Shown here piece after piece: positions 27,947-33,927 of a stretch of DNA of 41,818 bases (the first letter of the stretch is position 1; every line of letters starts with the position of its first letter). This DNA is from Oscillospiraceae bacterium. GTDB taxonomy: Bacteria > Bacillota > Clostridia > Oscillospirales > Oscillospiraceae. A program made the position numbers and the translations under genes. The DNA lies in NCBI GenBank assembly GCA_009785525.1, contig WQWC01000014.1, positions 1-41,818 on the forward strand, read 5' to 3'. The notes under the pieces are model-generated. The model ran no database searches. It was not told the origin of the DNA and was given only the letters and a program-made list of their open reading frames with translations.

Positions 27947-28831
27947 ATGACAAAAGCAAAAGCAAAACCAAGATTCAGACGCGGTCTGATTTTCATTAAA
28001 ATACTACTAAGCTTTATCCTGATAATTGCCATACTGTTCCTTGACAGCAACATAAGAATAGTCACAAGCGAGTATGAACTTTTCTACAGTAATCTGCCAG
28101 AATCGTTTGACGGGTTCCGTATTGTTTTGCTGGCTGACATACATGCAACGGAGCATGGGGAGGACAACAGAAGGCTTATCAACCGTGTGGAAGCCGCGAA
28201 TCCGGATATCATCGTTATCGCGGGGGATTTGCTGGACGCTTACAGAAGAATTCCGGTCAGAAGACAACTGCAGGTGGCCGAAACGCTTGCAGCGGGTTTA
28301 ACGCCGATTGCGCCTGTGTATTTTGTGACAGGCAATCATGAATGGGACAGAAGAGTCGGCGGACCTTGGGCGCTTTTTGAGATTATGGAGGAGCACGGCG
28401 TCACCGTGCTGCGCAATCAACACGTCCGGATTCAACGCGGCGATGAACAGGTCATCTTAGCCGGTGTTGACGACCCTCACGGCCCGGCCGACATGATAAC
28501 TCCCTATGACTTTGTCCGCAGAATACACGCGGCGGAGGGCGAGGACAGCTTTATCATAATGCTGGCGCACCGGAATCAAAACCTGCCGCTGTACAGCTCA
28601 CTCGGAGTGGACCTCGTGCTGTGCGGACACGCCCACGGCGGGATAATCAGGTTGCCATTTACCGATGGGCTGATAGGCCCCCAGCGCGAATGGTTCCCGA
28701 CACATACAAGTGGAATATACACGATGGACAATACACACATGGTAGTTTCCCGCGGCTTGGGGAATTATATCTGGATGCCGCGATTTTTGAACAACCCACA
28801 TCTTGTAGTAGCTGTGCTGAGGACGGGGTAG
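27947..28831 (+). CDS. Membrane-anchored calcineurin-like metallophosphoesterase (YkuE type)
   Basis: The 294-residue product has a basic start, one transmembrane helix (about 15-33, FIKILLSFILIIAILFL) and then the metallophosphoesterase motifs ADIHATEHG, AGDLLD, GNHEWD, MLAHR and GHAHGG for a dinuclear metal site. The type resembles YkuE/LpxH-like enzymes acting on phosphodiesters at or outside the membrane. Substrate unknown. GGAG lies 10 nt before the ATG, 17 nt after the NYN gene. No terminator was seen between it and the structured RNA that follows. Confidence 0.9.
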   Translation: MTKAKAKPRFRRGLIFIKILLSFILIIAILFLDSNIRIVTSEYELFYSNLPESFDGFRIVLLADIHATEHGEDNRRLINRVEAANPDIIVIAGDLLDAYRRIPVRRQLQVAETLAAGLTPIAPVYFVTGNHEWDRRVGGPWALFEIMEEHGVTVLRNQHVRIQRGDEQVILAGVDDPHGPADMITPYDFVRRIHAAEGEDSFIIMLAHRNQNLPLYSSLGVDLVLCGHAHGGIIRLPFTDGLIGPQREWFPTHTSGIYTMDNTHMVVSRGLGNYIWMPRFLNNPHLVVAVLRTG

Positions 28832-28862
28832 GACAAATTTGCAATGAAACAGGAGTGATATT

Positions 28863-28895
28863 TTGACACGACACTACGACAAACTCACATACTAA
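28863..28895 (+). CDS. Possible 10-residue leader peptide (or -35 region of the RNA promoter)
   Basis: A TTG at 28863 with AGGAG 8-12 nt upstream opens a frame MTRHYDKLTY ending at TAA 28893-28895, immediately before the first base of the structured RNA stem. The same bases contain a perfect TTGACA (28863-28868), which with CATACT (28888-28893, 19-bp spacing) could be the RNA's promoter. Either reading may be accidental. Confidence 0.3.
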   Translation: MTRHYDKLTY

Positions 28896-29133
28896 CGGGG
28901 GATGACGCCGCAAGCCGGTGAAATAGGATGACGCCTACCGCTGGATGGTGATTTAACCCGCCATACATTGCTCGGTACAATAAAAAACCGGGAATAGTTC
29001 GGATAAGGGGATGCAATATGCTCCTTTGAAGCAGGAAGCGGAAGTATTCGCCGCCTCAAGAGGGTGGCGGAGAATTGGTCTCTCTCTTATTAAGCCCGGA
29101 AAGCGTTACACGCTAAGAGTAAACAGAACCCCG
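28896..29133 (+). ncRNA. Large structured RNA upstream of the RNHCP gene
   Basis: No protein reading frame explains this region, yet it is dense in helices: a long-range closing pair CGGGG/CCCCG (28896-28900, 29129-29133), two copies of GATGACGCC (28901-28909 and 28927-28935), TAGG/CCTA (28924-28937), CTCGGT/ACCGGG (28971-28976, 28987-28992), AAGGGG/CTCCTT (29005-29010, 29021-29026), CCGCC/GGCGG (29051-29055, 29066-29070) and AGCGT/ACGCT (29102-29106, 29110-29114). Size and the repeated GATGACGCC remind me of the clostridial raiA RNA, but I cannot verify this. It is not RNase P, 6S, SRP or tmRNA by signature. It could be a stand-alone RNA or the sensing part of a riboswitch controlling the RNHCP gene. 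Confidence 0.7.
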
Positions 29134-29167
29134 CCTTCCGATATTTGAAATTCAAATATCAGGAGGC
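29133..29167 (+). promoter_or_regulatory. Hairpin sequestering the RNHCP ribosome binding site
   Basis: GATATTTGAA/TTCAAATATC (29140-29149, 29151-29160) extended by GCCTTC/GGAGGC (29133-29138, 29162-29167). The second arm contains most of the Shine-Dalgarno AGGAGG (29161-29166). The left arm adjoins the CCCCG strand that closes the upstream RNA, so the two pairings may compete. Confidence 0.7.
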
Positions 29168-29172
29168 TCGGT

Positions 29173-29490
29173 GTGAGTAGAAAAACCGAAAATACAGGAT
29201 TCCTCTGTGCACATTGCAACGCGGAGGTTAAGCCGCTGGACAACGGAAGTTATCGAAACCATTGTCCGCTTTGTCTATATTCGCTGCATGTGGATAATCT
29301 TCCGGGTGACCGGATAAGTGACTGCCACGGAATTATGGAGCCAGTGGGCATCCACTATCACAGTAAAAAAGGTATGCAAATAGTCCATCGCTGTCAAAAG
29401 TGCGGTGCGGAAAAGGTAAACCGAGTAGCAACGGACGCAATGCAGCCGGACGATAAAGATAAAATCAATAAATTAATGATGTTGGGATAA
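29173..29490 (+). CDS. RNHCP-domain zinc-binding protein
   Basis: The 105-residue product contains FLCAHCNAEV, YRNHCPLCLYSLHVD and HRCQKCG, three Cys/His groups that match the RNHCP domain (named for its RNHCP motif). The function of the family is unknown; the motif layout suggests zinc ribbons and nucleic-acid contact. GTG start with AGGAGG 7-12 nt upstream, which is buried in a hairpin. prfB follows 42 nt later. Confidence 0.9.
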   Translation: MSRKTENTGFLCAHCNAEVKPLDNGSYRNHCPLCLYSLHVDNLPGDRISDCHGIMEPVGIHYHSKKGMQIVHRCQKCGAEKVNRVATDAMQPDDKDKINKLMMLG

Positions 29491-33760: not shown

Positions 33761-33789
33761 CGCAACATACGCGCACAGGGCAAATCCCT

Positions 33790-33912
33790 GATGCTTTGGT
33801 TTGTCTCCTTCTCAAAACATGAAGGCTGAATCATTTCTAACATCAGCCCCGTGAGCCTGTAGCTCAGGCCAAGCGTCCATAGGAAAACCCGTAGGCCGCA
33901 AGGCACGGAAAC
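33790..33912 (-). promoter_or_regulatory. Moco/Tuco-type riboswitch upstream of modABC (probable)
   Basis: Between a consensus promoter and the terminator lies about 120 nt of structured leader: a GCTTTGG/CCAAGC closing stem (33793-33799, 33869-33874), a TGAGC/GCTCA hairpin (33852-33866), GGCTGA/TCAGCC (33824-33848) and CCTTC/GAAGG (33807-33825), and a CCGTGCC start near 33910. The multi-helix shape and position before a molybdate transporter fit the molybdenum-cofactor riboswitch family; the naming rests on context and recollection. A small CAGGG/CCCTG hairpin (about 33776-33790) links it to the terminator. Confidence 0.68.
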
Positions 33913-33927
33913 TATTAAATTCACGTA

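Follow-up and report, generated by a model that had tools for sequence, protein, structure and literature searches.

A structured RNA resembling part of the 16S rRNA head lies upstream of an RNHCP gene in an Oscillospiraceae bacterium

The locus and its RNA

The window analysed here is the whole stretch of 41,818 nucleotides from an Oscillospiraceae bacterium (assembly GCA_009785525.1, contig WQWC01000014.1, positions 1 to 41,818 of the forward strand). Between a metallophosphoesterase gene (27947-28831) and the gene of an RNHCP zinc protein it contains an apparently gene-free stretch (28832-29172) with a structured RNA. By its sequence and predicted pairing, this RNA is a miniature of the 16S ribosomal RNA (rRNA) head, homologous to helices h28, h29, h30, h41, h42 and h43 together with the junction bases, and missing h31-h40. 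The comparative sequence data indicate that the RNA is real and conserved as a structure, and its anatomy favours a leader of the RNHCP messenger RNA (mRNA). The E. coli helix numbers are our own assignment.

An earlier, sequence-only reading of this DNA had described about 240 nucleotides without a gene, and we found no convincing gene in 28832-29172, where the mechanical open reading frames (ORFs) reach at most 84 amino acids. The helices with CGGGG/CCCCG ends in that reading are present (ends at 28896-28900 and 29129-29133), whereas the helices h29, h42 and neck, which covary, are not in the minimum-energy fold. Its two copies of GATGACGCC are both in the window RNA; only the first is kept, as GAYGRYGCC, in all six rows of our alignment A4, and the second occurs in the window alone. 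The 5' end of the domain, GGGGAYGRYGCC, is common to the six rows and its 3' GAACCC to five of them, the locus L186 being without it. The functional unit extends past the mimic to about 29168 (Table 1).

Just 5' of the RNA (28863-28893), a TTGACA box and a weak second box 19 bases on were read by eye as a possible promoter. A ten-codon ORF within 28863-28895 (TTG start, AGGAG ahead), also seen by eye, ends directly 5' of the RNA and is a possible leader peptide. Promoter and terminator scans around the RNA gave nothing convincing: the TTGACA box was not listed and there was no terminator between the RNA and the RNHCP gene.

Homology to the 16S rRNA head and conservation

The sole gathering-level Rfam match in the stretch was bacterial small subunit (SSU) rRNA at 28935-29078, with 54.0 bits (gathering 50) and 48.2 bits when searched as a short piece. 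It covers positions 926-1370 of the model RF00177, with large deletions, and not its whole length. Across the 4227 models of Rfam 15 at the gathering score, rRNA was the sole family matching the RNA in the window and in five relatives described below (L184-L188), one of which (L184) reached 60.5 bits; T-box matches (L185, L187) and a SAM match (L187) fall outside the RNA. The own genome (70 contigs, 96% complete) gave no second SSU match, and the assembly presumably lacks the true 16S gene of this organism.

The ungapped stretch of 55 bases at 28996-29050 is identical at 35 or 36 positions to each of six 16S rows, among 18 distinct rows compared. Against the 18 rows, it keeps 26/31 invariant and 4/7 variable unpaired positions, and 5/17 stem positions (invariant 3/9, variable 2/8); the stems nevertheless pair. 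In h29, h42 and h43 taken together, 22 of the 34 stem sites differ from E. coli and 16 of the 17 pairs are intact, a result equalled in a fraction of 5e-6 of 200,000 random-substitution runs; these took E. coli as a proxy for the ancestor and used a hand-picked h43 register (a better register of 7 pairs was found later).

Model R1 was made from the letters of the window alone with a pairing map taken from 16S, so that the map, unlike the letters, is not independent of 16S. R1 recovers E. coli rrsH at 27.4 bits, and the R1 matches checked at 24-39 bits were 16S genes in 19/19 family-level loci (L103-L121) and 8/8 new order-level loci (L137-L144). Among 12 regions with weak R1 matches, three were 16S and the nine others (L122, L123, L125-L131; at most 21 bits) were treated as noise. 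With model R2, built from six mimics, the rrsH score rises to 52.7 bits and the match (16S 1195-1399) includes the neck.

R1 searches of 400 family, 394 order and 398 phylum genomes (overlapping sets, strict filters) detected clear relatives beyond the own genome only at the phylum level, where there were five: L184 (103.5 bits), L185 (83.0), L186 (80.2), L187 (76.4) and L188 (53.4). BLAST against E. coli 16S gives no match for any of the five, and the next six phylum-level loci (L178-L183, 36-39 bits) are all 16S genes. A search of plasmids and phages with the RNHCP protein of L187 gave 4 + 6 records, three of which were examined. As a held-out test this provided a sixth relative, L190, on plasmid pPNK of Candidatus Protochlamydia naegleriophila, a chlamydia-like bacterium of another phylum, with an R2 score of 154.6 bits. 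An RNHCP stretch without annotation follows the pPNK RNA after 92 bases, and the h29 of this RNA replaces even both outer pairs that are invariant in the other copies.

Direct similarity searches at the DNA level gave two chance matches in 119 relatives, and in phages and plasmids the window RNA had no match; the L190 RNA matched itself alone in plasmids, and the L187 RNA had no match in phages. A first DNA pattern gave 13 stretches in viral contigs, without any RNA match. A stricter one gave no viral contig and three genome contigs, all with ordinary 16S genes; its failure is uninformative because it required UGCAA in h42, which is kept by no relative found later. A later pattern built from the relatives gave no viral contig.

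The covariation analysis of seven sequences and 38 pairs found 92.5% of 252 cells paired, compared with 75.5% in shuffles, and 28 of the 38 pairs changed on both sides, compared with 14.0 in shuffles; none of 500 shuffles reached either figure. Sliding the partner columns by one to three lowered the pairing to 28-49%. This count uses the L185 pairing map and is thus biased towards L185. Without the window, the five relatives, aligned to R1 and so biased towards it, showed both-side changes in 13/28 pairs (0/500 shuffles as high). By helix, h29 has 100% of cells paired and double changes in 5/5 pairs, the neck has 88.2% paired and double changes in 8/8 pairs, and h43 is the weakest helix (85.3% of cells paired in the seven-sequence count and 72.0% in the five-relative count). 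A hand-made helix table gave 215/229 cells paired; it predates L190 and uses L186 where letters exist, excluding it from h42 and the hairpin, both lost there. The folding energy of 28885-29145 is weak evidence alone (z = -0.90, 40/200 shuffles as stable); with the hairpin over the ribosome-binding site (RBS) taken in (28895-29190), z was -3.26 and 0/200 shuffles were as stable.

Table 1. Features of the RNA and its surroundings in the window
Feature	Position	Strand	Details
16S-head-mimic RNA domain	28896-29132	+	GGGG strand to CCCC strand
Outer helix	28897-28900 with 29129-29132	+	GGGG with CCCC; nearly invariant, hence no covariation signal possible
Neck helix (h28 counterpart)	28922-28928 with 29085-29091	+	AAUAGGA with UCUUAUU
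h29	28938-28942 with 29037-29041	+	CCGCU with AGCGG; E. coli 16S counterpart GCGGU/AUCGC
h30, shortened to a hairpin	28945-28964 (28945-28950/28959-28964)	+	16S h31-h40 absent at this point
h41, shortened to a hairpin	28971-28992 (28971-28976/28987-28992)	+
Ungapped 55-base 16S match	28996-29050	+	AGUUCGGAU, h42 (29005-29010/29021-29026), UGAAG, GGAA, h29 3' strand, AGUA.UCG
h43	29049-29069	+	CGCCGCC/GGUGGCG, then GAGAAU (16S: GUGAAU)
RBS-hiding hairpin (predicted)	29133-29168	+	GCCUUC 29133-29138 with GGAGGC 29162-29167; GAUAUUUG 29140-29147 with CAAAUAUC 29153-29160
RNHCP zinc-protein gene	29173-29490	+	105 amino acids, GTG start; PF12647, 110.2 bits
Molybdenum/tungsten cofactor riboswitch	33789-33922	-	Ordinary; precedes molybdate-transporter-like genes (by eye; ModA-like name from reading)

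Linkage to RNHCP and a possible mode of control

The RNHCP gene or its remains lies directly 3' of the RNA in all seven copies (the window, the five R1 relatives and the plasmid copy), and in five copies the distance from the core to the start codon is 83 to 126 bases. The RNA-bearing RNHCPs (five in the tree) form one clade, with modest FastTree support (0.73). Directly after the mimic, a predicted hairpin closes the RNHCP RBS (-18.6 kcal/mol in the window). It is predicted in every copy whose leader 3' end is readable, six in all (the window, L184, L185, L187, L188 and L190), and absent from L186; the hairpins are mostly of different sequence, with a part in common to L185 and L187. Folding ensembles of the six leaders keep most of the RBS closed, with L190 the least firm. 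In the hand-made helix table, the proximal hairpin has 25/25 cells paired compared with 20.9 for a foreign 3' strand, and its covariation is therefore modest. An anti-hairpin switch, with CUUCCG paired to CGGAAG in the mimic, was dropped, since by eye it suits the window and not all relatives.

RNHCP was found in 29/119 relatives and 41/391 class genomes. At 8 of 57 other RNHCP loci examined, RsgA is encoded in the flanking DNA or shares a frame with RNHCP. Pfam confirms a single reading frame for RsgA plus RNHCP at L018 (445-1845), L151 and L152 have long joint RsgA-RNHCP frames, and the second RNHCP of the own genome overlaps the end of an rsgA gene (L021, 216-1845). RsgA is a 30S maturation GTPase, the C-terminal domain of which connects the platform with h29/h31 of the head (PMC9032327). 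The 16S part copied by the leader would thus lie near the seat of the RsgA-fused RNHCP domain, and the fusion and adjacency give indirect support to a possible binding of RNHCP to both leader and rRNA.

Two further RNHCP genes (L165, 1120-1791; L167, 1468-2231) have another translation-related neighbour, a bL28 (rpmB)-like gene named by reading, at a distance of up to about 230 bases. In its C-terminal half the window RNHCP resembles phage antitermination protein Q, with a score below the threshold (Pfam Antiterm, 23.5 bits, cut-off 26.7). Among solved structures RNHCP had weak matches only, the best again being phage antitermination protein Q (E 0.3). Our literature search found no study of the RNHCP family; the word RNHCP was met in papers of chemistry, judged by title.

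We suggest, with somewhat more confidence than doubt, that the RNA acts in cis as a regulatory leader, using its 16S mimicry to control RNHCP, with RNHCP itself as the likeliest ligand. This zinc protein would be associated with the ribosome and would bind the head of 16S in the vicinity of h29. Any surplus beyond the available 16S sites would bind the mimic, hold the mimic-plus-hairpin state and stop RNHCP translation; new 30S subunits needing RNHCP would draw the protein off the leader, and the gene would be read. Both the binding molecule and the direction of its effect on the hairpin (closing or opening) are what we infer here. Speaking for the proposal are the 16S homology with its pattern of change, the covariation, the linkage to RNHCP in all relatives, the lack of an RNHCP match at other prfB loci of the genus, the single clade of RNA-bearing RNHCPs, and the RsgA neighbours and fusions together with the contact of RsgA with h29 and h31.

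Several observations weigh against this proposal. Plain sequence alignment to E. coli 16S finds the correct place but scores 34, no more than the best shuffle (34); because plain local alignment falls within the shuffle range, the evidence for 16S homology needs structure. Folding without constraints gives a structure about 10 kcal/mol more stable than that of the mimic, and the modelled hairpin is stable (-12 to -19 kcal/mol) and needs some way to open. The RNA is rare, with five carriers among the 398 phylum genomes and the own genome as the sole carrier in the family and order sets. At E up to 1 no RNA match was detected in the 57 other RNHCP loci, and the RNA therefore serves one sub-clade. 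The RsgA-linked RNHCPs are on another branch of the RNHCP tree than the RNA-bearing ones. The RNA is also absent from two of the three plasmid or phage RNHCP records examined (nothing above 7 bits). Finally, the RNHCP frame is broken in L186 (5381-5750), where the RNA is without part of h42 and the hairpin and both seem to have decayed together, and RNHCP of L190 seems changed at a cysteine and frame-shifted near its end.

It is unlikely, in our judgement, that the same leader answers to another ligand, with uS7 or another head protein binding the mimic and RNHCP output following the balance between head proteins and 16S rRNA. The kept h28/h29/h43 and h29/h30/h41/h42 junctions, which we take to approximate the minimal uS7-binding fragment, would suit such a ligand. 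So would the cyanobacterial S12-S7 spacer, which resembles the S7-binding region of 16S (PMC10931766). However, known leaders usually encode their ligand downstream, and the rpsG gene of the own genome is a single copy on another contig with surroundings scoring at most 9.5 bits. By reading, no rpsG was noticed beside the other copies, where no family search was made. A candidate mimic in the own str operon (9.5 bits) was rejected.

The chances are poorer for release of the RNA as a stable small RNA acting in trans, for instance as an RNHCP-bound decoy or a 30S-assembly chaperone. The domain is compact and closed by its outer GGGG/CCCC helix, and the two boxes seen by eye just 5' of it could serve such a transcript, but the TTGACA box is missing from the promoter scan, no terminator separates the RNA from the gene, and the RBS hairpin and the similar spacing point to a leader. 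Slightly more doubtful is a different route of control, in which the mimic is sensed by RsgA, by intermediates of 30S assembly or by a further head factor, or in which binding opens the hairpin and activates the gene; the RBS hidden by default in the folding model suits an activator, yet no finding ties the mimic to one specific other factor. A functionless, decaying partial copy of a 16S gene can practically be dismissed. The bases look 16S-derived and L186 looks decayed, but nearly all pairs of h29, h42 and h43 are intact despite the many differing stem sites, the seven-sequence covariation contradicts decay and the gene neighbour is constant.

The proposed RNHCP-responsive leader may also be mobile. 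At 18 other prfB loci of the same genus (17 genomes; two loci with less than 700 bases upstream) there was no RNHCP match, and a phosphoesterase gene precedes prfB in 11 of them; therefore the RNA and RNHCP probably arrived together in the window, inserted as a pair in its operon. Apart from the two that belong to one genus, the relatives have different gene neighbours (compared by reading). Tentatively, and with a little more doubt than confidence, we envisage a descendant of the 16S head domain that was trimmed, moved into an mRNA and kept as a ribosome-assembly sensor for RNHCP, a new 30S factor, the pair travelling between bacteria as a cassette (the window operon, a mobilizable chlamydia-like plasmid).

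Comparison with known RNA systems

The analysis provides a function hypothesis and a candidate RNA substrate for the little-studied RNHCP, predicting its binding to the 16S head around h29 and its joint action with RsgA. By sequence and fold, the RNA is an unusually full rRNA mimic, a piece of 16S inside a probable mRNA leader, and such a natural mini-head could serve as a tool for studying head assembly.

The sequence-only reading had proposed a conserved structured RNA that, if outside the known families, would be a new one tied to the RNHCP family. Conservation beyond the own genome, in the five phylum relatives and the plasmid copy, and covariation in the homologous regions, the absence of either of which was to count against the idea, bear this out, as do the lack of Rfam matches other than rRNA and the constant position upstream of RNHCP. 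Not part of that reading were the homology to 16S, the hidden RBS and the link between RNHCP and RsgA. The suggested likeness to raiA RNA did not hold: in 28830-29200 there was no raiA match at E up to 5 in Rfam, which we believe holds a raiA model, and the Rfam match obtained was to SSU rRNA, with which the RNA is homologous. The two RNAs are alike in compactness and length (210 nucleotides in Clostridium acetobutylicum; PMC11751092), and differ in the neighbouring gene.

With SSU_rRNA_bacteria (RF00177) the RNA shares homologous h28-h30, h41-h43 and junction bases; at about 240 nucleotides, without h31-h40 and all other domains, it cannot be a working rRNA. We take the copied 16S part to be a protein-binding site, in part on the basis of PMC10931766. 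According to the same paper, the uS7/str operon operator and the cyanobacterial S12-S7 spacer resemble the same part of 16S, whereas the window RNA lies outside the own str operon and the uS7 transcript and precedes RNHCP. Our literature search on 16S-mimic, uS7 and rRNA-like RNAs gave no description of the window RNA among the matches listed.

The closest parallel is with the ribosomal-protein leaders (S15, S8, L1, L20, S4), which likewise are mRNA leaders copying the rRNA site of a protein and controlling translation downstream (PMC10931766 and PMC7247131). In silico, the window RNA has the resemblance to an rRNA site, the linkage as a 5' leader and the predicted platform at the RBS that mark this kind. 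It differs in that its gene is not a known ribosomal-protein gene and in that the mimic is a two-junction core recognised by the 16S covariance model. Taken together, we consider the RNA a new structured leader family, of the rRNA-mimic kind by its looks and probably by its action, yet placed before a gene that is not for a ribosomal protein and with an exceptionally full mimic.
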